Assembly (NCBI RefSeq): GCF_000257645.1 | Contig: NZ_AJHJ01000007.1 | Span: forward strand, 1 to 64,000 | Origin: Serratia sp. M24T3 | GTDB lineage: Bacteria > Pseudomonadota > Gammaproteobacteria > Enterobacterales > Enterobacteriaceae | DNA length: 64,000 nucleotides | Reading direction: 5' to 3' | Shown here: positions 20,644 through 60,645 of the stretch, in pieces | Numbering within the stretch: the first letter of the stretch is position 1 | How the letters are laid out: every line of letters starts with the position of its first letter | Notes under the pieces: model-generated | Databases searched by the model: none | What the model was told of the DNA's origin: nothing | The model's input: only the letters and a program-made list of their open reading frames with translations | Position numbers and translations under genes: made by a program

Positions 20644-22416
20644 TTAATTTTTGTGATTTTTAATCGCCATAAACGGGTTGGATCTAACGCCGTAATCGAC
20701 GAAGTACTCCTCTCCCGCCGCGATCTCTCGAAGAGTGACATAAGCCGTCAATTTGGAGTTCACCTGCACCGCTGCAACATTATTTTCGACCAGAAGTGGC
20801 TCTTTGGCTAACTTGCCACTGTTAATGTTGTGCGCAATGCTGCCCGCCGCCAAGGTGTCTGCGTTGAACCTTTCCAGGCTGCTTCCACCTTTATAAATAA
20901 GAGTGTTCACTGGACCAGTGTTGTCCACTACTTTCCCCGCAGCCCCTTGTTCTAAAAATATGCCATCATAAAAATCTATTACCGTATTGGCAGCAATTGG
21001 CTCCGAGCCGAGATTAAAAACCCCTATCCCCATAATTATAATTTCATTAGCACGATGTGGCAGAGAGTGCGGTTCAGAATTCTCCATCAAGCAATTAACC
21101 TGCCCGTCATTCTGAGATTTATCCTTTATTTGCTGATATAATTCGCTGACAATTTTTGATTCCAGCTTTATACGGCTTTTAATAGGCATTTTCTCTAAAA
21201 CCGTCTTCATGCCGCCCCAGCTCGTCACCTTACTATTTTTAACCTCATTAGCAGAATCAAGACCCAACACCTCAACACTTGGATTTTGTCGAGGATTTTC
21301 AGGATGGTGATAAACAGGCAGGCTATTATCACTCCCGGCGGCTTCCTGCAAACGAGGCTCGGTAATAATACGGCATTCCGATTCATTTCCCGATTCATCA
21401 AGAGTAATTTCGACTATTCCCCTGTTTGACGGATCGATTTCCTTTTTTATCGCAATCATTGGAATCTCTGGGTTTAGGACTGGGTTTAGGACTGGCTTTA
21501 TAACTGGGTTCATCTGATGGCGAAGACGGAATTTCATATAGGCTATAGCTTTACTTAAAACTTTGGCGCTGACCCCACAGCGGCTGGCAAATTGTGACCT
21601 GGTTATTCCTCTAACCTCAAAAGTATGCTGATTAGCCAACCAGGCACGTGCGCTTTCTTTGCTATTTTTGCTGCAATTATGGCTTTTGACCATATTATCC
21701 ACAAACGGTAAGTCTTTGTGTCCAGGCCCTAAGGTTAACTGCGGCAAATGTTTCTGCGGCTGCAAACATTTGATGAGCACAATCAAGGTTTGCGGAGGGA
21801 CTTCAGCCAGGCGGGAGAACTGAAACGGGGTGATCCCCACGCCCTGCAGCGTGGTTTGATGCTGAATCCACGCCTGAGTTGCCTTGTGTGGTTCTCTTGC
21901 GCACTGTGCATCTCTGACCACCTGCTGACCCAGGGCTTGCTGAGACGCCGTCAGTGGCAATCGTGCCCGTTGCTCGTGAGAGATATAGTTCCTTAATGTA
22001 CTCTCGTTAACACCACAAAAGTCGGCAAAGTCTTTAAGCTTGATATTATTGCTAATCATGGTGGGCAGGTAATCTAGCCAGGCGCAGACAGCTCTGGCCT
22101 TTGCCCCGAGGCAATCTGCGTGGTGAGTGATTTGGTTCAGTACCTGGTTTTGCTGCACTGTTAGCCTGTTGGTGACTTCCTGCTTTCTCATCTGCAGACA
22201 CATAAACTCATGTCTGAGCCTTAGGTTGCAATTATCCAGTATTGCCGATTGATTATCCGCTGTCGTGCTGGGTGACAGCGATAAAGGCATTTTGGTGCTG
22301 TGGCTGAGGTCTAGAATATTATTTGAAATAGAACTAAAACTAGCGGCAGCCATTGATGTTGAATCGGCAGAGCCAATTAATACGCTTTCGCTCCCTAATA
22401 TAGAAAAATCACTCAT
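20644..22416 (-). CDS. HTH-repeat protein with C-terminal SET-like domain (paralogue A)
   Basis: 590 residues. Polar Ser/Thr-rich N-terminus (1-60), then three repeats of about 70 residues (about 85-310) following the plan Cys, (K)A..AWL, Q.T, GI...QF, R..V, TL, resembling repeated helix-turn-helix units. After a linker, residues about 463-580 fit a SET methyltransferase: GIGVFNLGSEPI with ANTVIDFYDG, then GSIAHNINS in place of the NHS motif, AAVQV, and REIAAGEEYFVDYG with Y575 where the catalytic tyrosine belongs. Bacterial SET proteins are often effectors that modify host proteins. Role as a secreted host-directed or DNA-directed methyltransferase is inference; no secretion genes are nearby. 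Confidence 0.72.
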   Translation of the reverse strand: MSDFSILGSESVLIGSADSTSMAAASFSSISNNILDLSHSTKMPLSLSPSTTADNQSAILDNCNLRLRHEFMCLQMRKQEVTNRLTVQQNQVLNQITHHADCLGAKARAVCAWLDYLPTMISNNIKLKDFADFCGVNESTLRNYISHEQRARLPLTASQQALGQQVVRDAQCAREPHKATQAWIQHQTTLQGVGITPFQFSRLAEVPPQTLIVLIKCLQPQKHLPQLTLGPGHKDLPFVDNMVKSHNCSKNSKESARAWLANQHTFEVRGITRSQFASRCGVSAKVLSKAIAYMKFRLRHQMNPVIKPVLNPVLNPEIPMIAIKKEIDPSNRGIVEITLDESGNESECRIITEPRLQEAAGSDNSLPVYHHPENPRQNPSVEVLGLDSANEVKNSKVTSWGGMKTVLEKMPIKSRIKLESKIVSELYQQIKDKSQNDGQVNCLMENSEPHSLPHRANEIIIMGIGVFNLGSEPIAANTVIDFYDGIFLEQGAAGKVVDNTGPVNTLIYKGGSSLERFNADTLAAGSIAHNINSGKLAKEPLLVENNVAAVQVNSKLTAYVTLREIAAGEEYFVDYGVRSNPFMAIKNHKN

Positions 22417-47211: not shown

Positions 47212-47827
47212 GTTTTCTCCAATCGATGCAGATTCAGTAAATGGCCCTAGCAGCGAGCCAAGGTAAAAGGCTGTTGATTTACTCTACCGCCAATGACGAA
47301 TTTTTTGTGGGGAATGCGCAGTTTGCTACAGCAGAATGTGCGTTATCGGTTTGCGAAAGGAAATTTCATGTTGATGCTGCTCTCAAGCCGCTAAAACTTA
47401 TGATTGAGGGCTAACACGGCAATTCAGCTTACGGTCAACAGTGTTTAAAACTGACAACTTGCAAACTTAACTTAAATTTCAAACCAACAATAGGTCACTA
47501 AATTAATTTATCAGCACAACACGCTTTATAATGAGGATTTAAAGCATTTGCTAAGCCTTTAGTCGTCAATTAAAGGTTAATGTTTAAATCACAGACTTGA
47601 ATAGGCGGCAAAAAAAGGTGGTATTGGCTAACTTCTCTTAAACACCTTTGATTCTGTTATAAAATAATTGTTTAAAAATCCCCCCTGCTGAAGCAATCGC
47701 ATTTTTCGCTTCTTTAAAAACCTGATCTAAAGTTTGTATCAGACCCTGGGTAAACAGATGCTCTGTCCGATGACCGCAAGGTACGCCTGAATGGGTTGGC
47801 ACCATATTCTAACCGGAGATTATTATC
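47212..47827. other. Intergenic region upstream of the peptide locus
   Basis: 616 AT-rich bases between the divergent gabD and the first precursor. An AAAGGTG/CACCTTT hairpin (47614-47649) has a T-run only on the minus strand and follows no gene. GATGACCGCAAGG near 47771-47783 resembles the GGTCGCAAGG element before later precursors. The promoter of the first precursor block should lie here but is not clear. Confidence 0.45.
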
Positions 47828-48031
47828 ATGAAAGAACTCAATATGAATGAATTGGAAATGGTTGCAGGCGGTGGATTGGTAAGTGGTGCTCAGGCCTCTA
47901 TATTTACTGTAATAAATAACGCAACTGCTGGAGCAGTAGGTGCAGCATCTGGAGCACTTGGTGCTCTACCTGGTGCTTTCACAACTTTGGAAAGCGACGT
48001 AACCGGATTAGAAGGTAGTTTACTTAATTAA
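47828..48031 (+). CDS. Double-glycine peptide precursor 1 (microcin-like)
   Basis: 67 residues: 15-residue leader MKELNMNELEMVAGG plus a 52-residue core. The leader has the L/M-x-x-x-E-L-x-x-V-x-G-G pattern cut by C39 peptidases, as in the microcin V leader. The core is Gly/Ala-rich and hydrophobic, has no Cys, Lys or Arg, and three acidic residues (D/E) near the C-terminus. CGGAG lies 9 nt before the ATG. It should be exported and processed by the transporter encoded 2.5 kb downstream. Antibacterial action is inferred from the family, not shown. Confidence 0.85.
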   Translation: MKELNMNELEMVAGGGLVSGAQASIFTVINNATAGAVGAASGALGALPGAFTTLESDVTGLEGSLLN

Positions 48032-48086
48032 TTAAATCAGTGCAATACGTTGAATATATAAGCCTACACAATGTAGATTTATTATA

Positions 48087-48109
48087 CGGCTCCCAACCTA
48101 TGGGAGCCG
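48087..48109 (+). terminator. Hairpin after precursor 1
   Basis: CGGCTCCCA/TGGGAGCCG stem, 5-nt loop, followed by ATTTGTT. The same hairpin occurs after precursors 2 and 3. The weak T-run suggests partial termination or 3'-end protection. Confidence 0.6.
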
Positions 48110-48133
48110 ATTTGTTCACCATTGTCATTTGAA

Positions 48134-48268
48134 ATGGATTGCATTATATCGCCATTATTCCGCCAGAGAGAGTGAGAAAATAAAGTAGTTACAGCAGTAA
48201 AAGTGTTAGAGAACAATGTGGCTAAAGACGTAGAAGCACTAGAAGAAATTGCTGTTTATGATATCTAG
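48134..48268 (+). pseudogene. Chimeric relic: exporter N-terminus fused to an orphan tail (unit A)
   Basis: In one frame it reads MDCIISPLFRQRE, stop (TGA at 48173), ENK, then a 27-codon tail VVTAVKVLENNVAKD... ending YDI and TAG. The first part matches the start of the intact fusion protein (MDSIMPPLFRPEVAENK). The tail resembles the acidic, helical end of a precursor core. It is broken by the TGA. Confidence 0.6.
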
Positions 48269-48377
48269 TAGATGTAATTCAATTAATTAAACTCAAGGCA
48301 GGCTGCATTGCTGTGACACGTTTACAAGCCGCCTGGCACGGGTTTTAACAACTATCACAATTTCGGAGATTATTATC

Positions 48378-48569
48378 ATGAAAGAACTCAATATGAATGA
48401 ATTGGAAATGGTTGCAGGCGGTGAAGGAATATTAGATGGTATTTTGAATGCCACCTCGGATACATACAATGAAGCAATTAATGTCGGCAATCAAGCCCTT
48501 AAGGAAACAGATATTTTTGTTGCTGTATCCACCCAAAACTTACAGACTGTCTTTGGCGGTGACATATGA
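48378..48569 (+). CDS. Double-glycine peptide precursor 2
   Basis: 63 residues: the same 15-residue leader as precursor 1, identical also at the DNA level, and a 48-residue core unlike it. The core has seven acidic residues and one Lys, no Cys, and a helical pattern (DGILNATSDTYNEAI). CGGAG ribosome site. Leader identity with core divergence indicates diversifying selection or cassette replacement. Confidence 0.82.
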   Translation: MKELNMNELEMVAGGEGILDGILNATSDTYNEAINVGNQALKETDIFVAVSTQNLQTVFGGDI

Positions 48570-48623
48570 TTTTTTAAAATAACGGATTAAATACATAAGC
48601 CTACACAATGTAGATTAATTATA

Positions 48624-48646
48624 CGGCTCCCAACCTATGGGAGCCG
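48624..48646 (+). terminator. Hairpin after precursor 2
   Basis: Second copy of the CGGCTCCCA/TGGGAGCCG stem-loop, followed by ATTTATTCC. Confidence 0.6.
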
Positions 48647-48670
48647 ATTTATTCCCCATGGTCATTTGTA

Positions 48671-48805
48671 ATGGATTGCATTACATCGCCACTGTTCCGC
48701 CTAATAAGGCGAGGAAATACATTGGGTAAAGTAGTAGAAGTGTTAGAGAACGATGTGGTTAAAGACGTAGAAGCACTAAAAGAAATTGCTTTTGATACTA
48801 TCTAG
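48671..48805 (+). pseudogene. Chimeric relic, uninterrupted frame (unit B)
   Basis: 44 codons, open from ATG to TAG: MDCITSPLFRLIRRG from the exporter-type start, then GKVVEVLENDVVKDVEAL... ending DTI. It has no good ribosome site and no leader. It is probably a duplication relic, although it could in principle be expressed. Confidence 0.5.
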
Positions 48806-48914
48806 CATGTGTAGTTCAATTAATTAAACTCAAGGCAGGCTGCATTGCTGTGACACTTTTACAAGCCGCCTGACACGGGTTTTAACAACCGTCACAATTT
48901 CGGAGATTATTATC

Positions 48915-49109
48915 ATGAAAGAACTCAATATGAATGAATTGGAAATGGTTGCAGGCGGTGGAGTAATATATGACACTGTATATGATTTAAACAACGAAAT
49001 CAATACAATAGTCATGGATACTGATCTTACCACTCAAGAAAAAAATGAGGCAATTAATACTCTCCATCTTGTAACCCGTGGCACATCTGATCTTATTAAC
49101 CTTTTATAG
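48915..49109 (+). CDS. Double-glycine peptide precursor 3
   Basis: 64 residues: the shared 15-residue leader and a 49-residue core that is unlike precursors 1 and 2. The core is strongly acidic (eight D/E against one K and one R), has two Tyr and no Cys. Last precursor before the intact exporter, separated from it by the third GGCTCCCA hairpin. Confidence 0.82.
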   Translation: MKELNMNELEMVAGGGVIYDTVYDLNNEINTIVMDTDLTTQEKNEAINTLHLVTRGTSDLINLL

Positions 49110-49168
49110 CCATTTCGACCAGCACTGTGGATTGAGCATATAAGGTTAAATGATTTAGATTTATTATA

Positions 49169-49191
49169 CGGCTCCCAACCTATGGGAGCCG
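49169..49191 (+). terminator. Hairpin after precursor 3
   Basis: Third copy of the CGGCTCCCA/TGGGAGCCG stem-loop. It is 37 bases before the fusion-protein ATG and lacks a T-run, so it may set the ratio of precursor to exporter mRNA. Confidence 0.6.
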
Positions 49192-49227
49192 AGTTAATCA
49201 CAATTGTCATTTGTAATGGATTCCATT

Positions 49228-50514
49228 ATGCCCCCACTCTTCCGCCCTGAAGTCGCCGAAAATAAACAGTCTCAGTGGCTGGGTAAAGCGCTATTACTCA
49301 AAGGCTGGCCACCTTGGGTTACCGCACTGCTGACCGCCGGATTTATGATTGCCCTGCTCATATTCCTAATTTTCGCACAATACGCCAGACGCATCACGGT
49401 AAGTGCAGAAGTCATTACTCAGCCGCATACTATTAACTTATTTTCTCCTGTAGAGGGTGTTATTTCACAACTGTTAGTCAGCAATGGCCAAAAGGTTATT
49501 GCCGGAACACCGCTGTATCAGCTAGACCTCAGCCGCGTCGGGCAAACGGGCAATGCCAGCACCACCACGCTGGCGGCAATAAATAAACAAAGACACCAGC
49601 TCGACGATATTATTGCTCAGCTTGAAAATAATAAACGTGCCACTTTATCTAATCTGCAAGACCAACTGGATCAATATCAACAGGCGCAAACAGGATTAAA
49701 CAAGATGGTGGCATCTGCCGCAGACGGTTTAAACGCCATGCGCATTACTCTGGATTCCTACAATATTTCGCTGCGCAAAGGGTTAATTAATACCGATCAG
49801 CTGAACAATCAGCGCTATCTCTATTACCAGCAACAAAGCTCATACCAAAATTTGCATGCACAGGCGATACAGCAGTCATTGCAAATCAGCGGTCTGCAAA
49901 GCGCCAAAGTGACGAAATCCTCAGATTTTGATAATCAAATTTCACAGTCGCGCTATCAGCAGCAGGGACTGGACCGCGAATTAGCCGAAGCTAACGTTAA
50001 AAACTTACTGTTAATCACCGCGCCCGCGGCGGGAAGTATTTCATCTCTCAGCGTGACACCGGGGCAAATGGTCAATGCAGGCGACAGTTTGGTACAGCTG
50101 GTGCCGGGAAATAATGAAATTTTTTTTCTCGTCGCCTGGCTACCCGATGAAAGCCGCCCCTTTGTAACCCTGGGTGAAACAATCAATATCCGCTATGCGG
50201 CGTTTCCCTCTGAAAAATATGGGCAGTTTCCCGGCAAGGTCATTTCTATTGCCGATGCGCCCAGTACCGCGCAAGAAATGAAAGATTATCTCAGCGCCCC
50301 GCGTAACAGCAGTGGAATGATCACCGGCTCCTATTTTAAAGCCATTATTGGTCTCAACTCGGCCTCAGTCACCTGGCATCAACAGCATCTGGCATTGACG
50401 AGCGGCATGCAGGCGCAAACGACGCTGTTTCTTGAGCAGCGTCCGTTATATCAGTGGATGCTCTCACCTTATTACAGCCTTAAGAACAGCATCACGGGAC
50501 CAATAAATGAATAA
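49228..50514 (+). CDS. Peptide exporter membrane fusion protein (CvaA/MchE-like)
   Basis: Periplasmic adaptor linking the inner-membrane ABC exporter to TolC, 428 residues. One membrane helix (about 24-49), a biotinyl-lipoyl-like strand region (VISQLLVSNGQKVIAGTPLYQ), a long coiled coil (about 105-230), and the second lipoyl half with TAPAAGSISSLSVTPGQMV. The ATG at 49228 is chosen by alignment with the second copy; another at 49216 is in frame and neither has a good ribosome site. It overlaps the transporter gene by 8 bases. Confidence 0.9.
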   Translation: MPPLFRPEVAENKQSQWLGKALLLKGWPPWVTALLTAGFMIALLIFLIFAQYARRITVSAEVITQPHTINLFSPVEGVISQLLVSNGQKVIAGTPLYQLDLSRVGQTGNASTTTLAAINKQRHQLDDIIAQLENNKRATLSNLQDQLDQYQQAQTGLNKMVASAADGLNAMRITLDSYNISLRKGLINTDQLNNQRYLYYQQQSSYQNLHAQAIQQSLQISGLQSAKVTKSSDFDNQISQSRYQQQGLDRELAEANVKNLLLITAPAAGSISSLSVTPGQMVNAGDSLVQLVPGNNEIFFLVAWLPDESRPFVTLGETINIRYAAFPSEKYGQFPGKVISIADAPSTAQEMKDYLSAPRNSSGMITGSYFKAIIGLNSASVTWHQQHLALTSGMQAQTTLFLEQRPLYQWMLSPYYSLKNSITGPINE

Positions 50515-52609
50515 TTTGGAGCTAAAAGCGCTGATGCAAAAACTTCATTTCGGCTTTCGTCGCCAAGTGCCGCAAATTATCCAGACGGAAGCGGCGGAAT
50601 GTGGGCTGGCTTGCGTGGCGATGGTCTGTGGCTTTCACGGATTGCAGACTGATCTTCTGAGCCTGCGCCAACAGTTTGATGTATCGACCCGAGGGGTGAA
50701 CTTAAAAACTCTGATGGGTATCACCAGCCAACTGCATCTTAAATCGCGCGCCTTACAGGTTGATATCGATAATATAAACGCACTTAAAACACCCTGTATT
50801 TTGCACTGGGACATGAACCATTTTGTGGTGTTGATAAGCTCGAATAAAGGCAAGGTGCGGGTTCACGATCCTGCTTTTGGCAAACGAACGTTGAGTATGC
50901 AGGAAGTGTCGGCGCATTTTACCGGAGTGGCATTGGAGCTGTGGCCAGACGCAGAGTTTAGCCAGGATAAAAAGCTTAACCGACTGAATCTTAGGAAAAT
51001 GGTCGGCAACGTTGGCGGGCTGTTCGCTACCCTGAGCAAGCTTTTTTGTTTTTCGTTAATGATTGAATCGGTGAATTTGTTGCTGCCGGTGGGTATGCAA
51101 CTGGTAATGGACCACGTAATTCCTGCACAGGACGCTAATCTGCTGACCCTGATTTGCCTTGGCTTGCTGTTTTTTGTGTTTTTTCGCACCGGAGTCAGCA
51201 TTCTTAAATCCTGGACCCAACTGGTAATGAGCACGCTGATTGACGTGCAATGGAAAGCCCGCCTGTTCGACCACTTGCTGGCGTTGCCTTTGTCATATTT
51301 TGAGAAGCGCAAACTCGGCGACATTCAATCACGCTTTATTTCACTTGATACCCTGCGCACCACACTGACCACCAATGTGGTTAATAGCTTGATGGACGGC
51401 ATTATGTCCGTTGGGCTGATAATGATGATGGCGCTTTATGGCGGTTGGCTGGTTTGGGTAATTCTCGGATTTACCGTGCTTTATAGTCTCTTCCGACTGG
51501 TGACTTACTCGCGTTATCGGCAGATTTCAGAAGAACAGCTTGTCAAAACCGCCCGCGCCAGCTCGCATTTTATGGAAACACTGTACGGCATGGGGACCCT
51601 AAAGGCGCTGGGTTTGTCATCAAATCGTGCCCAGCGCTGGCTGAACATGAACATTGATACCGCCAACGCCAACGTGAGAAAAACCCGTTTCGATATGTTA
51701 TTTGCGGGTGGGAACACCTTAATCTCTACCCTCGATCAAATTTTACTGCTATGGCTGGGAGCAACTCAGGTAATCGATGGCCATATGACGCTGGGTATGT
51801 TTGTGGCTTTTAATACCTATCGTGGCCAGTTTTCGGAAAGAGCGGCCAACCTGCTGAATATGGTGTTGCAGCTGCGAATGCTATCGCTGCACTCGGAACG
51901 TATTGCCGATATTGCCCTCACTGAGGTTGAACACAACCTGCCTGCTCGCGCACTTTTACAGGCCGGGGAAGCGGCAGCCTTGGAAGTTAACGACGTCTCA
52001 TTTCAATACGATGTGATGTCTGCACCGCTGATTAAAAATCTGTTCATGACGGTTGCAGCCGGTGAGAGTGTGGCAATCACAGGTCCATCGGGCCAGGGCA
52101 AGACAACACTGATGAAATTACTGTCCGGCCTGCTGCCGCCAACATCAGGAGAGATTCGATTAAACAGCTTGGATATCAGCAAGGTAGGGGTTAATAATTA
52201 TCGCGCCTGTATTGCCTGTGTGTTGCAGGACGATACGCTGTTCGCAGGTTCCATTGCCGAAAATATTGCAGGCTTTGCAGAGTTGCGAGAACCCGAGCAT
52301 TTGCTGGATTGTGCTCAACGTTGCAGTATTCACGAAGATATCCTGCGCATGCCCATGGGTTATGAGACCTTGATCAGTGAGCTGGGCGGCAGCCTTTCAG
52401 GCGGTCAAAAACAGCGTTTGCTGATTGCCCGAGCATTATATCGCCGTCCTGGAATTCTATTTTTGGATGAAGCCACCAGCCATTTAGATGTAGAAAATGA
52501 AGCTCGCATAAATGCCGCCATTTCGGCATTGAAGATCACTCGTATAATTATTGCTCACCGCCCTTCCACCATCGCTTCTGCCGATCGCGTCATTGTTCTT
52601 GGCGATTGA
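50507..52609 (+). CDS. C39-peptidase ABC exporter (CvaB/MchF-like)
   Basis: Inner-membrane transporter that cuts the leader after Gly-Gly and exports the peptide, 700 residues. C39 peptidase: C32 in QTEAAECGLAC, H105 in WDMNHFVVL, D121 in HDPAFG. A six-helix membrane domain (about 160-440) follows, then the ATPase domain: GPSGQGKTT, LGGSLSGGQKQR, ILFLDEATSHLD, switch IIAHRPS. All catalytic parts are present. It should serve all eight precursors, since they share the leader. Confidence 0.93.
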   Translation: MNNLELKALMQKLHFGFRRQVPQIIQTEAAECGLACVAMVCGFHGLQTDLLSLRQQFDVSTRGVNLKTLMGITSQLHLKSRALQVDIDNINALKTPCILHWDMNHFVVLISSNKGKVRVHDPAFGKRTLSMQEVSAHFTGVALELWPDAEFSQDKKLNRLNLRKMVGNVGGLFATLSKLFCFSLMIESVNLLLPVGMQLVMDHVIPAQDANLLTLICLGLLFFVFFRTGVSILKSWTQLVMSTLIDVQWKARLFDHLLALPLSYFEKRKLGDIQSRFISLDTLRTTLTTNVVNSLMDGIMSVGLIMMMALYGGWLVWVILGFTVLYSLFRLVTYSRYRQISEEQLVKTARASSHFMETLYGMGTLKALGLSSNRAQRWLNMNIDTANANVRKTRFDMLFAGGNTLISTLDQILLLWLGATQVIDGHMTLGMFVAFNTYRGQFSERAANLLNMVLQLRMLSLHSERIADIALTEVEHNLPARALLQAGEAAALEVNDVSFQYDVMSAPLIKNLFMTVAAGESVAITGPSGQGKTTLMKLLSGLLPPTSGEIRLNSLDISKVGVNNYRACIACVLQDDTLFAGSIAENIAGFAELREPEHLLDCAQRCSIHEDILRMPMGYETLISELGGSLSGGQKQRLLIARALYRRPGILFLDEATSHLDVENEARINAAISALKITRIIIAHRPSTIASADRVIVLGD

Positions 52610-53042
52610 TATAAAAAAACACCACTTGTAATAATTAGTTTTTTATTTAAATAAAAATTTACATATTTAGTCTTTAATAAAAAAACCCCAAAACACAAGC
52701 GATCAAAAAACAACCAAAATCATTAAGTCTCTATGTCAATTAATCTTGATGACTTAAAAACATAAAGAAAATTAATGTTATCCCGCATGGTTTAGGCATA
52801 GGAATTTATCTGAATTAGGCGCTAAATCCTTGGTGTTTATTTTTCAAAACAGAATAATAAGCTGCACTAAACTAAACGTAAAGAATCTTACTATTTTCTA
52901 TCAAAACAATAACCTAAATTCAATCATTTCGTTTAGAGTAAATGCGTGGTTGCAAGGAGCAGCTATGCGGCAAGCTGGAAATTAACCTCAGCTGCCTTTC
53001 AAATATTAATCCAGTATTAATTGATAATTTCTCGAGGTTATT
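52610..53042 (+). other. AT-rich region before the second precursor block
   Basis: 433 bases with no open frame. Its right part is homologous to the regions before precursors 7 and 8 (AAAGAAAATTAATGTTA and GTTTAGAGTAAAT at 52931) and should contain the promoter of the second block. Confidence 0.6.
52931..52943 (+). promoter_or_regulatory. Shared upstream element, copy 1
   Basis: GTTTAGAGTAAAT, followed by GTTGCAAGG. The same element, GTTTAGAGTGA, precedes precursors 7 (54387) and 8 (55326) at a similar distance, 90-110 bases from the ATG. Possibly a promoter or activator site. Confidence 0.45.
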
Positions 53043-53222
53043 ATGAAAGTTCTAGACACTATGGAAGTTGAACAAGTTGTAGGTGCTGGTGGTTTTCTTA
53101 CCGACACACTGGGCACTGTTATTGGCGCGGTAAGTAATGTTGTAAGCCCATTGGTAGGACAAACCGTGCAATCTTTAGACAATGATGTCGATGGACTTTT
53201 AAAGTTGTTAATCACCTTTTAA
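53043..53222 (+). CDS. Double-glycine peptide precursor 4 (GA type)
   Basis: 59 residues, a short frame beginning MKVLDTMEVEQVVGA, so the leader ends Gly-Ala as in microcin L. The core of 44 residues begins GGFLTDTLGTVIG and ends LLKLLITF; four Asp, one Lys, no Cys. GAGG precedes the ATG. Close paralogue of precursor 5, 46 bases downstream; the two could act as a pair. Confidence 0.8.
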   Translation: MKVLDTMEVEQVVGAGGFLTDTLGTVIGAVSNVVSPLVGQTVQSLDNDVDGLLKLLITF

Positions 53223-53268
53223 ATCCTAGGTCTAACGCTTATTAAATACGCTAATCCTGGAGACTGGC

Positions 53269-53460
53269 ATGAAAGAACTCAATGTTACTGAAATTGATCA
53301 AGTTGCCGGGGCCGGTGGCGTTATCACCGATCTGCTGGGAACTGTTCTGGGCAGCACAAATGACGCAATAAGTAACGCGATCAGCCCAGTTGTAGGACAA
53401 ACCGTACAATTTGCAGAAATTGATGTCGACAGTATTTTAAAATCGTTAATCACCTTCTAA
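53269..53460 (+). CDS. Double-glycine peptide precursor 5 (GA type)
   Basis: 63 residues: leader MKELNVTEIDQVAGA and a 48-residue core sharing GTV(I/L)G, SP(L/V)VGQTVQ and the end LITF with precursor 4. Five acidic residues, one Lys, no Cys. GGAG lies 8 nt before the ATG. Confidence 0.82.
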   Translation: MKELNVTEIDQVAGAGGVITDLLGTVLGSTNDAISNAISPVVGQTVQFAEIDVDSILKSLITF

Positions 53461-53669
53461 AGCGAAGGTTGGACGTTTAATAAATACGCTTAATTTGCCT
53501 GTGACCCATGATGCTGTTTCATATATACGCAGACAGAGTCGCGCCTGCGAATATTATGACTCACATTGGCAACCCAGCCTTGCTTGCTTAAGTAACATCA
53601 GTGACCTGTCAATTACTGTTGAAACCATTAGCCATTGCATATCAATTTTTTAAAATCCTGGAGACTGAG

Positions 53670-53852
53670 ATGAAAGAACTCAATTCTATTGAAACTGAAC
53701 AAGTTGCTGGCGGCGGTTTAGCTATCAGTGCAGTGAATGATGTTGTTAGTGCTTTGGACCCATTATTACACCAAGTGCTGGCGATCTCTGTTCCGAATGC
53801 ATTAACCAGTGTTGAAACAGCGGCTACCAGCCTATTTTCAACCTTGGCCTAA
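53670..53852 (+). CDS. Double-glycine peptide precursor 6
   Basis: 60 residues from the ATG at 53670 (GGAG 7 nt upstream); the open frame extends further upstream but that part is not translated from a recognisable start. Leader MKELNSIETEQVAGG, core of 45 residues with three acidic, no basic residue except one His, no Cys. The pattern NDVVSALDPLLHQVL then SVPNAL matches precursor 7. Confidence 0.82.
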   Translation: MKELNSIETEQVAGGGLAISAVNDVVSALDPLLHQVLAISVPNALTSVETAATSLFSTLA

Positions 53853-53932
53853 AATTTAGTAGCAACGGCATTATGCAACTCAATTAACTGGCTATTAAAA
53901 CCTCCATTAATAGCTGATATGGGTTATGTCGA

Positions 53933-53958
53933 CCACCTGCTGTTTAACCAGCAGGTGG
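53933..53958 (+). terminator. Hairpin after precursor 6
   Basis: A 10-bp perfect stem, CCACCTGCTG/CAGCAGGTGG, loop TTTAAC, followed by ATTATCTTTATG. Likely terminator despite the interrupted T-run. Confidence 0.65.
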
Positions 53959-54386
53959 ATTATCTTTATGTCTTAATTTACTCCTGCGCAAGTTTGTAAC
54001 AAAGCGCGCCTTATTCGCCTACATTCTGCCCAAACCTCCCTCGAACTCAACTCTGCACTTTTATCGATAATTTTAGCTTCCTGCCTAACCACATTTCATT
54101 ACTAACAATGAGTTACATATTTTTTTCAGACCTAGATCACAGAATGCTACCAGATTGCTCAAAAATCACCCACCCTGCTTATATACTTAAGTAAAATAGA
54201 TATCACAAAAATAAAATATAAATTTAATTAATGTTAAAAATTACATTCACTTCCTAGGAGGCCGATCGGCCATTTCGACCAATGCGTTGATGATTTGATT
54301 ATAGATAGAATAAAAAACCATGAATTACAAACCATAAAGAATTTAAAACTTTTATAACGAAATAATATGCCAATTTTAAGAAGATA

Positions 54387-54397
54387 GTTTAGAGTGA
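54387..54397 (+). promoter_or_regulatory. Shared upstream element, copy 2
   Basis: GTTTAGAGTGA preceded by AAGATA and followed by GTGGTCGGAAAG, 90 bases before precursor 7. Confidence 0.45.
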
Positions 54398-54486
54398 TTG
54401 AGTGGTCGGAAAGAATCAAACAGCGTAATCCTTACATTGTTTGCAGGATCACAATTAAACTTTTGTTAACTATTCCTGAGGTTACT

Positions 54487-54669
54487 ATGAAAGAACTCAA
54501 TACTATGGAAGTTGAACAGGTTGCTGGTGGCGGTTTAGTGTCAGACCTGTTGGGTGAAGTCGCTAGCACTGTTAACCCACTGGTTAATGAACTGGTTCAA
54601 ACGACTATTCCTAACGCCGTTTCAAGCGTTGCGACAGGTGTTAACGGTATCCTGACTGCTTTGTTCTAA
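54487..54669 (+). CDS. Double-glycine peptide precursor 7
   Basis: 60 residues: leader MKELNTMEVEQVAGG and a 45-residue core, GLVSDLLGEVASTVNPLVNEL and onward (quoted in part as SDLLGEVASTVNPLV), ending ILTALF. Three acidic residues, no basic residue, no Cys. Own upstream region and GAGG ribosome site, so a separate transcript. Paralogous with precursors 6 and 8. Confidence 0.84.
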   Translation: MKELNTMEVEQVAGGGLVSDLLGEVASTVNPLVNELVQTTIPNAVSSVATGVNGILTALF

Positions 54670-54734
54670 GAATTGTATCGATGTCATATACTAGTAAATC
54701 AGCAAGCCAGCGCTTTATTACCAGCATATGACAC

Positions 54735-54768
54735 TGTTCCCCCTGCAGCTTCTATTGTTGGGGGAACA
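54735..54768 (+). terminator. Hairpin after precursor 7
   Basis: 9-bp perfect stem with a 16-nt loop; no T-run follows, so it may protect the 3' end or end transcription inefficiently. Confidence 0.45.
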
Positions 54769-55325
54769 AAAAGGCCAAATTAGTTCCGCTCAATGCTTCC
54801 AACTAAATATTTTATTGAATTACCCCACCTTGCACTGCTTAAATCCAGTCTGAATAAAAGTGTGATTGCCTTTGCATTTTTAATATCTGAATCACCCATC
54901 AAATCCCTACATTTATTAATACAATATGAATCCAACTGTATTTCTCCTGGCAACATCCACTGCATCAATCTGCCGTCGTAGATTTGTCGTTCTACCAAAC
55001 ACCCAGACAATAGTTTCAAACTGAAATAATATTTCAATTTTAACAAAAAGTTACAATAGATCCCTGCCGCCAACGCTCAATAAATCACCAGCAGAATACC
55101 CCCTTTGGCTCATGGCTTATTTACTTAAGCTAAATGGATATCTAACAATTGAAATATAAAGAAAAATTAATGTATTATCTCCATAAGAAAGGTCTAGGAA
55201 CGCGGCAGGATTTTCCGTCAAAAGAGTGGCATTAACTTTATAATCAGTCTTAAACACTGCCATTTTAAATTTAAAAAGAATTTTTAACTTTTCTCACGAT
55301 AGAATAAGCCAAATTCAATTAGATA

Positions 55326-55336
55326 GTTTAGAGTGA
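55326..55336 (+). promoter_or_regulatory. Shared upstream element, copy 3
   Basis: GTTTAGAGTGA followed by ATCCAAGGTCGCAAGG, 100 bases before precursor 8. Confidence 0.45.
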
Positions 55337-55425
55337 ATCCAAGGTCGCAAGGGGTTACTTGCTGATGTATGAGGAAATAATCAGCGACTGTAGTTAAGCA
55401 TCTATTATTAATTTCGGAGATTATT

Positions 55426-55644
55426 ATGAAAGAACTAAACACTATCGAAGTTGAGCAAGTTGCGGGCGGCGGTTTGCTGTCAAGCCTGTTGGGTAATGTT
55501 GCGAGCACCGTTGGTGTTGCATTAGGTACAGTAGGAACTGTTGTTACTAGCACTGTTCCTAATATTCTTGGCACCACCGTATCCGATGTTGGCGCAGCGT
55601 TGAACGACCTGGGTATTCCTGCTGCAGTTTCAGAGCTGGTTTAA
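55426..55644 (+). CDS. Double-glycine peptide precursor 8
   Basis: 72 residues, the longest: leader MKELNTIEVEQVAGG and a 57-residue core rich in Val, Thr, Gly and Leu (LLSSLLGNVASTVGVALG, then TVVTSTVPNIL), with three acidic and no basic residues and no Cys. CGGAG 8 nt before the ATG. It immediately precedes the second exporter pair. Confidence 0.85.
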   Translation: MKELNTIEVEQVAGGGLLSSLLGNVASTVGVALGTVGTVVTSTVPNILGTTVSDVGAALNDLGIPAAVSELV

Positions 55645-55722
55645 TATCTGAAATAAATATATGTCTGTCTCCTACTCGTCAATATTCAAGCCATTTTGAA
55701 TAACTTGTAAGAGATATTCTTC

Positions 55723-55746
55723 CACCTGCAGTTAAGGCTGCAGGTG
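55723..55746 (+). terminator. Hairpin after precursor 8
   Basis: CACCTGCAG/CTGCAGGTG, loop TTAAGG, followed by ATTTAATC. It lies 29 bases before the second fusion-protein gene, in the same place as the hairpin before the first. Confidence 0.55.
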
Positions 55747-55774
55747 ATTTAATCGCTTCTACCAGAGTATTTTG

Positions 55775-57058
55775 ATGTCTGCACTTTTCCGTAAGGAAGT
55801 TGCCACTCAGCAACAAACTCAGTGGCTAGGCAAAGCGCTGCTGCTTAAAGGCTGGCCACTATGGATTACTTTATCCTTAACCAGTACATTCCTTGTATTG
55901 CTGCTGCTATTTCTGACGTTTGCAAACTACACTCGCCGAATTAACGTCAGTGCCGAAGTCATTACCCAGCCCTACACGATTAACCTGTTCTCACCTCAGC
56001 AAGGGGTCATTTCCAAACTGCTGGTTAAAAATGGACAACAGGTCGCTGCCGGCACTCCGCTTTATAAAATAGATGTCAGCCAGATTTCACAATCAGGTAA
56101 TGTCAGTACCTCAACGCTTGATGCTATCAATAAGCAGAAGTTGCAGTTGGACAACATTATCGCTCAGCAACGAAATAATAAGCAGGCCACGTTAGATAAT
56201 CTCCAGCAGCAGCTAGAGCAATACCAGCAGGCACAGATTGGCCTGAATAAAATGGTCGCCTCAGCCAGGCAAGGGTTAGAGTCGATGGGCAAAAGTCTTG
56301 ACTCTTATAATGTGTAGCTTAAAAAAGGTCTGATTACTACCGACCAGCTAAATAACCAGCGCTACCTTTATTACCAGCAGCAGAGTTCCTTCCAAAGCCT
56401 TACTGCACAGGTTATTCAGCAGTCACTCCAGATTAGCAACCTGCAAAGTCAGAAAGTGACCAAGGCGGCCGAGTTTGATAATCAGATCTCGCAATCGCTT
56501 TATCAACAGCAAACGCTGGACCGCGATCTTGCCGAAGCTAATGCAAGAAATCTAATTATCATCACTGCTCCGACGGCAGGAAATATCTCTTCACTGAGCG
56601 TAACGCCGGGCCAAATGGTCAATACCGGTGACAGCCTGGTGCAGCTGGTGCCAGAGAGTGAACACGCCTTTTATCTGGTTGCCTGGCTGCCTGATGCAAG
56701 CCGCCCTTACGTGCAACTGGGCGAAAAAATTAATGTCAGCTACGCCGCGTTCCCATTCCAAAAATATGGCCAATTCCCGGGAAAGATAATTTCGGTCGCC
56801 AGTGCGCCAAGTACGGCAAAAGAAATGTCGGGCTATGTGAGCGCGCCTCGACAGAACCAGGTTACCGATGGCAGTTATTTCAAAGCCATTGTAGCGCTTG
56901 ATAAAGGCTCGCTTAGCTGGCACGGACAACCTTTAGCTTTATCCAGCGGCATGCAGGCGGAATCCACGCTGTTTCTCGAAAAACGCCCGCTCTATCAATG
57001 GATGCTTTCCCCTTATTACAGCTTGAAGAAAAGTATTACCGGACCGGTGAATGAATAA
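55775..57058 (+). pseudogene. Second fusion protein gene, interrupted by one amber codon
   Basis: Paralogue of the gene at 49228, alignable end to end. Codon 181 is TAG (56315-56317), where the intact copy has TCG (Ser) in YNIS; one base change explains it. The frame is otherwise open to the TAA that overlaps the next start (TAATG). The break falls in the coiled coil, so without read-through the product lacks the second lipoyl half. All other family features remain. Confidence 0.85.
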
Positions 57059-59160
57059 TGAATAAAGCGCAGTTAGACGAACTCGTACAAAAATTACATT
57101 TCAGCTTTCGCCGCCGAGTGCCACAAATCATTCAGACCGAAGCGGCTGAGTGCGGGCTAGCCTGTGTGGCCATGATTTGTGGTTATCACGGATTACAGAC
57201 TGACCTGCTCACGCTGCGCCAGCAGTTTGATGTTTCCACTCGCGGCGTCACGCTGAAAACCCTGATGGCGGTGACTCAGCAGCTGAATTTAAAATCTCGT
57301 GCGCTACGCCTGGATATCGACGAACTTATCGAGCTTAAGACGCCGTGCATTTTGCACTGGGACATGAATCATTTTGTGGTGCTGCTCTCCGCCAAACGTG
57401 GGCGAATTGTGGTGCATGATCCGGCGTTCGGGCGGCGCGTTTTGGGCTTGCAGGAAGTGTCGGCGCACTTTACCGGCGTTGCGCTCGAGCTATGGCCAGA
57501 TGCCAATTTCAGCCATAAAAAGAACACCAACCGGCTCAATCTGCGCAAGATGGCGAGCAATGTCAGCGGCATTTTTGCTACCTTGACCAAACTGTTTTGT
57601 TTCTCGCTGATGATAGAGGCGGTAAATCTGCTGTTACCGGTCGGTATGCAGTTGGTGATGGACCATGTGATCCCGGCGCAGGACCCCAACCTGCTCACGC
57701 TTATCTGTCTTGGCCTGCTGCTGTTCGTGATATTTCGCACCGGCATCAGTATTCTGAAATCCTGGACTCAGCTGGTAATGACGACTCTGATAGACGTGCA
57801 ATGGAAAGCGCGCCTGTTTGATCACCTGCTTGCCCTGCCGCTGGCCTATTTTGAGAAACGTAAACTCGGCGACATTCAATCGCGCTTTGTTTCACTCGAC
57901 ACTTTGCGCACCACGCTGACCTCCAACGTCGTCAATAGCCTGATGGACGGCATTATGTCGGTCGGGCTGTTGGTGATGATGATTCTGTACGGCGGCTGGC
58001 TGGTGTGGGTTATCCTTGGTTTCACTACCCTTTACTGTTTATTCCGCCTGGCAACCTATCCAACTTATCGCCAGATAGCCGAGGAGCAGTTGGTGAAAAA
58101 TGCCCGTGCCAGCTCGCACTTTATGGAAACGCTGTACGGCATGGGCACCTTAAAAGCGCTGGGGCTTTCCTCAAACCGCGCACAGCGTTGGCTGAATATG
58201 AATATTGATACCGCCAACGCCACTGTGCGAAAAACGCGTTACGAGATGCTGTTTCAGGGCGGCAATACCTTGATTGCGACTCTCGACCAGATTGCTCTGC
58301 TGTGGCTCGGCGCGAGTCAGGTGATTGACGGCCATATGACGCTGGGTATGTTTGTGGCGTTTAACACCTATCGCGGGCAGTTTTCAGACCGCGCCGCCAA
58401 CCTGCTGGATATGGTGCTACAGCTGCGCATGCTGTCGCTGCATTCCGAGCGTATTGCAGACATTGCTCTCACCGAGGAAGAGCATTATATCCCTGAGCGC
58501 CCGCTGCTGCGCGTGGGTGAAGCCGCGGGTCTGGAGGTGCAAAATGTATCCTTCCAGTACGATGTGCTGTCCGCCCCGCTGATTAACAATCTCAACCTTA
58601 GCGTGACGGCAGGCGAAAGCGTGGCGATAACCGGCCCGTCGGGGACGGGGAAAACCACCTTGATGAAGCTGTTGTCGGGTCTGTTGTTGCCCACCGCCGG
58701 AGAAGTCAAACTCAACGGAATGGATATCAGCAAAGTTGGCGTAAACAATTACCGCGCCTGTATTGCCTGTGTGTTGCAGGAAGATACGCTGTTTGCCGGT
58801 TCAATTGCCGAAAACATTGCCAGCTTTGAGGAACAGAACGAGCCTGAGCACCTGCTGGAATGCGCCCGCCGCGCGAATATTCATGACGATATTTTAGCCA
58901 TGCCAATGGGCTATGAAACGTTGATAAGCGAGCTGGGCGGCAGCCTGTCCGGTGGGCAAAAACAGCGTTTGCTTATTGCCCGGGCACTGTATCGCCGTCC
59001 GAGCATTTTGTTCCTCGATGAAGCTACCAGCCATCTTGATGTCGAAAACTAGGCTCATATCAATGCTTCGATTGCGGCGCTAAAAGTGACTCGCATAATC
59101 ATTGCTCACCGCCCTTCAACGATTGCCTCAGCCGATCGCGTGATTGTGCTGGGGAGCTGA
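57058..59160 (+). pseudogene. Second C39 ABC exporter gene, interrupted by one amber codon
   Basis: Paralogue of the gene at 50507. Peptidase residues (ECGLAC, WDMNHFVVL, HDPAFG), membrane domain, GPSGTGKTT, LSGGQKQR and ILFLDEATSHLD are intact. Codon 665 is TAG (59050-59052) directly after LDVEN, where the intact copy has GAA (Glu). The last 35 codons, including the switch region AHRPS, stay open to TGA at 59158. Truncation would remove the switch histidine, so the protein should be inactive unless the codon is read through. Its end overlaps the convergent regulator gene by 33 bases. Confidence 0.85.
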
Positions 59161-60645
59161 TTCAGCCAGCATTTCATCTACCACATCGCCGACGATAGCT
59201 ATGCCGTCGGCGATGTCTTCCACTTTGATTGATGAAAAACCAATACGCATGTAGTGAGTTGGCCGCGAGGTTAATTTATTGGCAGACTGTAAGAAATAGC
59301 TTTCACCGGGCTGGATATAAACGTCTCTCTGGTAAGCTCGTTGCGAAAGCTCACGAGTATTGATCTCCTCGGGAAAGCGCAGCCACACCGAACTGCCACC
59401 TTCAGAACTTGCCACCTCGGCCAGCGGAATATACTGCCTGAGTGCCTGTTGCAGGGTATGCCAGCGCAGTTCGTATTCTTCGTGAAAGCGCTTGAGAAGC
59501 GACTCGTAATAGCCCCCTTTCAGAAACAGCGCGACGGTGCGCTGGTTATTTGCCGCCGGGTGACGAATGCTCATCCTGCGCAGCGCGCGGGCCTGTCGAA
59601 TAAACGGCAGCGGACCGACTAAAAATCCAACTCGCAGGCCGGGCGACAGCAGCTTTGACAGGCTAGTGACATACACCACGCGGCCATCTGTATCGATCGA
59701 TTTCAACGCGCTGGAAGGAAAACGGCCAAATCGCGATTCCGTGTCGTAATCATCCTCAATGATAATAAAGTCGTGATCTTTAGCCATTTGCAGCAGCTCA
59801 CGACGTCGTGAATGTGACAACGTCACGGTTGTCGGTGACTGGTGACTTGGGGTGACGTAAAGAATATCGCAACCCACCAGCGCATCGCCGATAATCAGCC
59901 CGTCTTCATCGACTGGCAGCGGTTTAAGCACCGCACCGTGGAAAATCATCAGGTTACGTACATCGGGGTACGACGGGTCCTCAATGCCAACCACCATTCC
60001 CGGGCGGATTAAACACTGGATTGCCAAAAATAGTGCATGCTGGGCGCCCACGGTAACCAGCACTTCCTGGGTATGGGCCGTAAATCCGCGCCTTGGCAAA
60101 ACGCGACGGCGAAACGCATCCAACAATACAGGGTCATCTTCGTCGACATAATCCACGGTCCAGTCATACATATCATGCAGTGACAGCGAATCGCGGCTGC
60201 ATTTTCGCCAGCTGGAGATTGGAAAGATCCAGCGGTCATGCTGGCCGTACATAAAGGTATATTTTTTGCTCCGCCAATCCTGTGGATGAGTAATGTGCTC
60301 CATCGCGGCAGGATTGATAACCAGCTTGCTGTCCCAGTCAACCGACGGCGAAACCTGCTCCACTGGCCGACTTTGCGGCAACCTCGCGATGGCATCTGGC
60401 GCAACGTAAAAACCGCGCCGGTGTTCGGAAATCAAGACGCCTTCCGCCGCCAGCTCTTCGTAGACCAGCGTCACGGTATTGCGAGATATCTTCAGCTGCT
60501 CGGCCATAATGCGAGTGGATGGCAGAGTTTGCCCCTGCTCGTAATCCCCTTTAGCTATCGCCTCAGAAATTTTTTCGCGCAGTTTTGACTGTAATGAACC
60601 CTGCGACTTGCGATCTATTGCGTTGGCAACCGATAAGTTAAGCAT
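59128..60645 (-). CDS. MocR/PdxR-type GntR-aminotransferase regulator
   Basis: 505-residue regulator: N-terminal GntR winged helix (about 18-85, LPSTRIMAEQLKISRNTVTLVYEEL shortened to LPSTRIMAEQLKISRN) joined to an aminotransferase class I fold. The PLP lysine is in YVTSLSKLLSPGLRVGF and the D-Y pair in IIEDDYDTE. Such proteins sense PLP-bound amino compounds. It follows the hydantoinase genes by 37 bases in the same orientation and so probably regulates them, and may also affect the convergent exporter by antisense overlap. Confidence 0.9.
   Translation of the reverse strand: MLNLSVANAIDRKSQGSLQSKLREKISEAIAKGDYEQGQTLPSTRIMAEQLKISRNTVTLVYEELAAEGVLISEHRRGFYVAPDAIARLPQSRPVEQVSPSVDWDSKLVINPAAMEHITHPQDWRSKKYTFMYGQHDRWIFPISSWRKCSRDSLSLHDMYDWTVDYVDEDDPVLLDAFRRRVLPRRGFTAHTQEVLVTVGAQHALFLAIQCLIRPGMVVGIEDPSYPDVRNLMIFHGAVLKPLPVDEDGLIIGDALVGCDILYVTPSHQSPTTVTLSHSRRRELLQMAKDHDFIIIEDDYDTESRFGRFPSSALKSIDTDGRVVYVTSLSKLLSPGLRVGFLVGPLPFIRQARALRRMSIRHPAANNQRTVALFLKGGYYESLLKRFHEEYELRWHTLQQALRQYIPLAEVASSEGGSSVWLRFPEEINTRELSQRAYQRDVYIQPGESYFLQSANKLTSRPTHYMRIGFSSIKVEDIADGIAIVGDVVDEMLAESAPQHNHAIG

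Follow-up and report, generated by a model that had tools for sequence, protein, structure and literature searches.

The window, by which we mean the whole 64,000-nucleotide stretch of DNA analysed, contains eight small precursor genes and two exporter gene pairs, which we read, with a probability of about 0.55, as a microcin-like type I peptide export locus of a Rouxiella species in which one group of precursors (array 1) has been diversified by exchange of the core-coding segments and the peptides, specific to the strain, most likely serve in antagonism between bacteria. That role is the least certain step of the explanation; an antibacterial, biofilm or autolysis function is possible for the peptides. 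Judged from sequence, the unusual part of the locus is array 1, where the leader DNA appears to be fixed and the cores differ both between copies and between strains. The features, all on the plus strand, are as follows.

47828-48031, +, array 1 precursor P1, 67 aa (leader 15, core 52)
48050-48349, +, spacer repeat copy 1, with hairpin 48087-48109, a relic of the HlyD 5' end, a headless core relic from 48188 and the 5' flank of the next unit
48378-48569, +, array 1 precursor P2, 63 aa
48587-48886, +, spacer repeat copy 2, with hairpin 48624-48646, a HlyD 5' relic and a headless core relic from 48728
48915-49109, +, array 1 precursor P3, 64 aa
49169-49191, +, third, exact copy of the 23-nt hairpin, preceding exporter 1
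49204-50514, +, exporter 1 HlyD-like adaptor, 436 aa from TTG or 428 aa from the ATG at 49228
50507-52609, +, exporter 1 C39 peptidase-ABC transporter, 700 aa
53043-53222, +, array 2 precursor P4, 59 aa, GA at residues 14-15 and GG at 16-17
53269-53460, +, array 2 precursor P5, 63 aa, core related to that of P4
53670-53852, +, array 2 precursor P6, 60 aa
53933-53958, +, terminator-like hairpin 3' of P6
54487-54669, +, array 2 precursor P7, 60 aa
55426-55644, +, array 2 precursor P8, 72 aa
55772-57058, +, exporter 2 HlyD-like gene, in-frame TAG at 56315-56317
57058-59158, +, exporter 2 C39-ABC gene, in-frame TAG at 59050-59052

The ORF calls and inspection of the leaders give eight GG/GA-leader ORFs of 59-72 aa, each with a leader of 15 residues that ends in GG in six cases and in GA in two. 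A leader matrix, trained in part on these same leaders, scores the eight precursors at 34.3-43.3 bits and has no match at 14 bits or more in 1,518,089 reversed control bases, and a profile of the eight precursors, run against the whole 5.25 Mb genome at E values up to 10, retrieves exactly these eight. The set of precursors put forward in a preliminary description of this DNA is thus borne out, as is its view of a multi-peptide export locus, since the eight precursors compare with a maximum of five counted in 79 relative loci, counts that are lower bounds given that many of the loci are incomplete and divergent leaders are undercounted. A strict leader pattern missed the Rahnella-type leaders and the matrix still misses some (as in locus L010), so that zero counts are undercounts. 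Related loci likewise have the 15-residue leader, this type of exporter and short precursors, the counted precursors ranging over 31-118 aa; neither leader length nor short precursors are therefore distinctive, and the shortness that the preliminary description had singled out holds against the 75-120 aa of class II microcin precursors (PMC9746304, PMC11494933) but is a weak mark within the exporter family.

In array 1 (47.8-49.2 kb), the three precursors have a common ribosome-binding region, leader and 3' hairpin. The leader DNA of P1, P2 and P3 is identical (45/45 nt), and the shared block of 62 nt stops at codons 15-16. Beyond it, when the cores of P1, P2, P3 and the corresponding precursor of the conspecific genome G004 were compared in all six pairs, the scores fell within those of shuffled sequences (15-281 of 300 shuffles reach the score), the P3-G004 pair being borderline (15/300, z 2.0). 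Of 393 further genomes from the order, one gave a match to the P1 core (E=0.009), which lies within a frame of 420 aa and which we take as chance. Since the leader DNA of P1-P3 shows no differences, synonymous sites included, the copies must be recent, leaving point mutations too little time to account for the divergence of the cores. The two spacer repeats are 88% identical, and the 23-nt hairpin has three exact copies genome-wide, all in the array 1 region; terminator-like sites as such are fewer in the region than in shuffles (5 versus a mean of 8.4). Compared with nine cores, both core relics in the spacers match that of G004 best (reached by 0 and by 3 of 500 shuffles), within a set of 18 comparisons in which relic 2 with P4 comes next at 7/500.

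The comparison with G004 places the break between strains at the same position. Its array 1 site holds one precursor with 44 of the 45 leader nucleotides the same and a core unrelated to those of P1-P3; the strain alignment stops at nt 47871, within codon 15 (the cleavage codon), and restarts at 49227, at the start of the exporter 1 HlyD gene. The flanks of the differing array are syntenic in these two strains, and all five array 2 precursors (P4-P8) are amino-acid identical between them; P8 also has a counterpart in R. badensis, with a core 60% identical. Exchange, whether by gain or by loss of cassettes, is what we infer from this comparison of two conspecific genomes. Recombination would replace the core-coding segment, anchored on the left by the near-identical leader DNA and on the right by the region of the 3' hairpin and HlyD start, and would leave behind the HlyD and headless-core relics in the spacers.

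Two HlyD-like/C39-ABC pairs are present, as the preliminary description had it, with ABC proteins 84% identical to each other, but the second is interrupted by TAG in both genes. Both frames of exporter 1 are open, and its ABC protein has the presumptive motifs Cys32/His105/Asp121, Walker A/B, signature and H-loop. In exporter 2, the TAG in the HlyD-like gene leaves a first piece of 180 aa, and that in the ABC gene stops the 700-aa protein at 664 aa, short of the H-loop, which is lost. Readthrough of the two stops by amber suppression, which would make exporter 2 functional, might be suggested by the fact that both interruptions are TAG and the remainder of each frame is open; it is very improbable, since no CTA-anticodon tRNA occurs in ARAGORN calls covering 58 RF00005 matches (150 of 218 first-look candidates scored, in a 113-contig draft) and the stops are absent from G004, where the frames are open at 428 aa and 700 aa. 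On the same two grounds, a second working exporter appears to be a trait of the other strain and not of the sequenced one. The broken exporter, with one stop per gene, and the HlyD and headless-core relics could also be taken as signs of a locus in decay, with relic-filled spacers and cores drifting without function. We regard this as unlikely: no frame is interrupted among the eight precursors or in exporter 1, the leaders are intact, the array 2 precursors have the same amino-acid sequences in both strains, and the exporter 2 genes have open frames in R. badensis as well as in G004.

Under the preferred reading of peptide export with core exchange, the leaders of all eight peptides would direct them to exporter 1, which a TolC-type channel encoded elsewhere would complete; the genome has 24 OEP-family (PF02321) matches elsewhere, TolC itself not being singled out among them. 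The C39 domain of exporter 1 would cut after GG/GA and release acidic, Cys-free cores of 44-57 residues. The net charge of the cores is -1 to -6, whereas many bacteriocins are not acidic. The helical hydrophobic moment exceeds that of shuffles for P4, P6, P7 and P8 (reached by 2-9 of 500) and not clearly so for P1, P2, P3, P5 and the G004 core (29-180 of 500); the AlphaFold model of the array 2 core family is helical, at low confidence (mean pLDDT 57.7). A plasmid origin was considered and rejected, positions 47700-59300 having no megablast match in 72,556 plasmid records; the two precursors searched against those records by tblastn, P1 and P8, had no match at E 0.01, and relatives of the exporter on plasmids reach up to 62.9% identity among the matches listed. 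By eye, the gene at 59128-60645 looks like one for a GntR/aminotransferase-type regulator.

No clear immunity gene was found among 25 extra ORFs in and beside the locus, a list of ORFs of at least 30 aa that overlap known genes by no more than 40%, in which hydrophobicity is a 19-residue mean. The most hydrophobic (54793-54981, maximum 1.55) has a G004 counterpart of just 38 aa; the next (54234-54419, minus strand, 61 aa, 1.33) retains its whole length in G004 (93%), so that an immunity function is possible for it. The ORF at 54780-55073 (minus strand, 97 aa) was rejected as an immunity gene, with no Pfam match at E 0.01 and a G004 counterpart of 76 aa. Among the ORFs of 47.2-59.4 kb we saw neither immunity genes nor peptide-induced regulators.

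The lack of a clear immunity gene would be expected if the secreted peptides had a non-antibacterial role in biofilm formation, autolysis or signalling, the turnover of cassettes then providing surface or kin variation. We consider this possible, though less probable than the preferred reading. It is in keeping with the acidic, Cys-free cores, with array 2 cores that are the same in two strains, and with seven Rahnella/Ewingella/Hafnia-type relative loci in which a single near-invariant 63-aa GG peptide lies next to the exporter, unlike an arms-race gene. The Rce1-like family is linked with bacteriocin immunity, and a member of it adjoins the parallel Psychrosphaera locus described below, which speaks for antagonism. 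Precedents for a non-antibacterial role are EbfG1-4 in Synechococcus biofilm (PMC4997328) and the Naps, which have no detectable antimicrobial activity and promote autolysis (PMC11798529), although the nap island does carry the immunity-like napI (PMC11798529). By contrast, a syntenic locus whose GG peptides vary between strains has the pattern of an antagonistic repertoire, as described for the pneumococcal BIR (PMC7595303).

The same combination of constant leaders and unrelated cores occurs in Psychrosphaera saromensis (locus L083), with three precursors whose leaders agree at 41-44 of 45 nt and whose cores are unrelated (85-225 of 300 shuffles), a 75-nt repeat that ends in the GG codons, a duplicated HlyD and an Rce1-like gene (PF02517, 9.4e-20) adjoining the third precursor. 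In array 2 and the Ewingella, LSJC7 and Pseudoalteromonas multi-precursor groups, the cores are related, so that exchange is not a general rule; leaders and cores were compared in four loci picked by eye from the 15 relative loci with at least two counted precursors (L083, L044 and L077 whole, L063 for three of five precursors). We tentatively propose, at somewhat less than even odds, that arrays of leader-anchored cassettes exist in Gram-negative bacteria. The ribosome-binding site and leader DNA would serve there as a handle for recombination, with the cleavage codon as the point at which the mature-peptide segment alone is swapped; each strain would thereby acquire its own set of peptides, secreted through a single conserved exporter and without dedicated immunity genes, and such arrays would have arisen at least twice (array 1 of Rouxiella, and Psychrosphaera).

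The array 1 arrangement looks like a means of rapidly altering the weapons or signals that are secreted, and constant leader DNA with exchanged cores shows how repertoires of exported peptides could change within a species. The locus offers natural core variants for probing the substrate tolerance of a C39 exporter, and prompts one to ask how producers withstand peptides for which no immunity gene is apparent. Searches for microcins are mostly designed to find a single precursor of 75-120 aa with an immunity gene nearby. A literature search found no paper on such a locus, and Rouxiella and Rahnella are not named in the main texts of PMC9746304, PMC13174018 and PMC11494933. The novelty claimed in the preliminary description stands to that extent and does not extend to multi-peptide GG loci, which are already known as a kind: the E. 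coli H47 cluster holds three class II microcins (PMC11494933), 74% of the Serratia marcescens assemblies that bear microcins have more than one (PMC13101503), Synechococcus has four EbfG peptides (PMC4997328) and Neisseria three Naps (PMC11798529), and the pneumococcal BIR is a further case (PMC7595303). The preliminary description mentions neither the TAG interruptions nor the DNA-identical leaders with unrelated cores, and it does not cover the spacer repeats or the differing array 1 of G004.

Of the systems already described, loci for class II microcins (MccV/CvaAB, the E. coli H47-I47-M cluster, Klebsiella E492-G492, the Serratia marcescens SM microcins) have a double-glycine leader, C39-ABC and HlyD-like proteins and can hold several precursors. 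The locus described here has the double-glycine leader of about 15 residues and the exporter proteins (exporter 1 intact, exporter 2 interrupted); it differs in its eight precursors, in their 59-72 aa, which miss the 75-120 aa range, in having no clear immunity gene, and in its DNA-identical leaders with unrelated cores. Because the precursors are shorter than known ones and we found no clear immunity gene, we do not file it as a class II microcin locus. No match to a characterised family emerged, Pfam and NCBIfam scores lying below curated cut-offs: this holds for the MccV/Bacteriocin_IIc matches of the precursors (P1 among them) and for the E492 model (15.8 bits against a cut-off of 50), in a set of models that covers not every verified microcin. 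The pneumococcal blp BIR likewise has double-glycine leaders and strain-varying peptides in a syntenic locus (PMC7595303); here the exporter is of the Gram-negative type, the strain break falls at the leader-core junction, and neither clear immunity genes nor an adjacent peptide-sensing regulator were seen. The Neisseria nap island and Synechococcus ebfG1-4 also combine several GG peptides with C39 processing, nap encoding cationic autolysis peptides with an immunity-like napI and ebfG biofilm proteins, whereas the cores here are acidic. The Psychrosphaera locus shares the same-leader, unrelated-core precursors and the HlyD duplication, with a C39-ABC protein 44% identical, and differs in its distant host, its precursors of 47-54 aa and its Rce1-like gene. 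In polymorphic toxins that undergo tip exchange (CDI, Rhs), a constant delivery part is joined to an exchangeable C-terminal part and relics of displaced parts are left behind; by analogy, array 1 may be seen as a similar arrangement in which the constant part is the 15-residue leader of a short peptide.

The eight small plus-strand genes of 59–72 aa with a 15-residue leader that the preliminary description had recognized are borne out by the ORF listing and by alignment, in which the leaders of all eight precursors (P1–P8, in order) take the form MK-x-L-x-x-x-E-x-x-x-V-x-G-G/A. A profile of the eight precursors matched them and nothing else in the strain's own genome (5,253,142 bases, 113 contigs) and was matched in 36 of 392 family genomes, counting its own and that of the conspecific G004. 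The precursors match Bacteriocin_IIc, MccV, the CTB family and other Pfam and NCBIfam entries only below curated cut-offs, and the core of P1 (the residues after the leader) has a single weak match (E 0.009; within a 420-aa frame) in 393 further genomes of the order. P1–P3 form array 1 (47.8–49.2 kb) and P4–P8 array 2 (53043–55644); the exporter genes are as follows:

49204–52609, + strand: exporter 1, complete, with an HlyD-family adaptor and a 700-aa C39 peptidase/ABC membrane/ABC ATPase protein
55772–57058, + strand: exporter 2, HlyD-like frame, interrupted by TAG at 56315–56317
57058–59158, + strand: exporter 2, ABC frame, interrupted by TAG at 59050–59052

The duplicated CvaA/CvaB-type exporter described earlier thus holds as two pairs, but only the first is complete, the second being interrupted in both genes. 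The 700-aa protein of exporter 1 carries Cys32, His105 and Asp121 together with the Walker A and B, signature and H-loop motifs. The ABC piece of exporter 2 stops at residue 664, ahead of the H-loop. In G004, the sole other conspecific among the genomes searched, both exporter 2 frames are uninterrupted, at 428 and 700 aa. ARAGORN found no tRNA with a CTA anticodon among the 58 tRNA-family matches of the genome (150 of 218 first-look candidates scored). On the simplest view, exporter 2 would not work in this strain, and both arrays would depend on exporter 1.

In array 1, the cores of P1, P2 and P3 resemble one another no more than shuffled sequences do (P1–P2, P1–P3 and P2–P3 scores reached by 265, 211 and 55 of 300 shuffles). 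Their leader DNA is identical at 45 of 45 nt, and a 62-nt block of ribosome-binding region and leader, ending at codons 15–16, is common to all three at 98–100%. This identity extends to synonymous sites, which makes the copies recent ones; point mutation in place therefore cannot explain the divergence of the cores. The two spacers repeat each other at 88% over 300 nt, and each contains a headless core end alongside an HlyD 5′-end relic. An exact 23-nt element occurs three times in the array 1 region and nowhere else in the genome; we name it a hairpin only, because the region has fewer terminator-like sites than shuffles do (5 versus 8.4 on average) and slightly more promoter-like ones (27 versus 20.1, sd 4.1).

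Left homology to G004 stops at window nt 47871, within P1 codon 15, and restarts at 49227, at the HlyD start of exporter 1. Between these breaks G004 has one precursor, its leader identical at 44 of 45 nt and its core unrelated to those of P1 and P2 (scores reached in 281 and 82 of 300 shuffles) and borderline to that of P3 (15 of 300). Identity in 250-nt bins is 82–98% over 49250–51500 and 93–100% beyond. For the spacer relics the G004 core was the best match of nine cores (0 and 3 of 500 shuffles; next best in the 18 comparisons made, 7 of 500), a likeness that is suggestive only.

The array 2 precursors are all identical in amino acids between the two strains (5/5), and their cores, unlike those of array 1, are mostly interrelated (in 7 of 10 pairs no more than 2 of 300 shuffles reach the score) and look like ordinary paralogues. 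R. badensis (Rouxiella) has four array 2-type precursors spread over two contigs. A further R. badensis exporter is flanked on its 3′ side by a 62-aa GG peptide whose leader is extended and on its 5′ side by a short ORF whose leader is degenerate (L115 5033–5221 and 9158–9265).

A scan of genome contigs with the exporter pair as query gave 79 loci, in which a leader matrix counted no precursor in 40, one in 24, two in 10, three in 2, four in 2 and five in 1; these are lower bounds, some loci being truncated and some leaders divergent, and the GG peptide of L010 escapes the count. At L083 of Psychrosphaera saromensis, three precursors have leaders identical at 41–44 of 45 nt and unrelated cores. 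A 75-nt repeat there closes with the GG codons, the HlyD gene is duplicated, and an Rce1-like gene is present. Here the anatomy of array 1 recurs in a distant host, which makes two examples. Among six groups in which leaders and cores were compared, cores are unrelated in two (array 1 and Psychrosphaera) and not so in four.

Seven loci (L010, L012, L013, L014, L018, L022, L047; Rahnella, Ewingella, Hafnia psychrotolerans, unclassified) each encode one near-invariant 63-aa GG peptide. With L116 they represent a common separate exporter locus (hosts Rahnella, Ewingella, H. psychrotolerans, a MAG and one Rouxiella-genus genome), its single conserved peptide of 63–64 aa encoded on the strand opposite the exporter. 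Two Pseudoalteromonas loci (L063 13151–13661, L065 13146–13655) each have four near-identical 36-aa GG peptides at ~133-base spacing, downstream of the exporter and close to the contig end. Elsewhere in the window, adjacent minus-strand genes encode large proteins, paralogues by eye, of 555 aa (18741–20408; no Pfam match at E 0.01) and 590 aa (20644–22416; only weak MerR/HTH_3 matches, below cut-off). A 363-aa minus-strand ORF (4558–5649; no Pfam match at E 0.01) resembles, by eye, an Rhs C-terminal end with tip, its N-terminal part absent nearby.

From the sequences, the open and interrupted frames and the homology breaks, which are directly observed, we infer export, cleavage and core exchange: exporter 1 would export the peptides, cleaving after residue 15, and cores would be exchanged by homologous recombination via the leader DNA and the 3′ region. 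As to role, antagonism would be our first choice, since GG peptides that vary from strain to strain within a syntenic locus are the pattern of the pneumococcal BIR (PMC7595303). Two things count against antagonism: no clear immunity gene was found at the locus (according to PMC9746304, perhaps not every microcin has one), and GG peptides with other roles have precedents (PMC4997328 and PMC11798529).

Known class II microcins are given as 75–120 aa in PMC9746304 and PMC11494933, and their immunity genes as adjacent in PMC13101503. Because the precursors here fall outside that range and no clear immunity gene is seen, we term the locus microcin-like and do not file it as a microcin. Multi-peptide GG loci as such are already known. 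The literature searched, mostly outside subscription journals, yielded no description of core exchange behind the same leader in a Gram-negative locus, and such exchange behind a fixed leader is here put forward tentatively as new.
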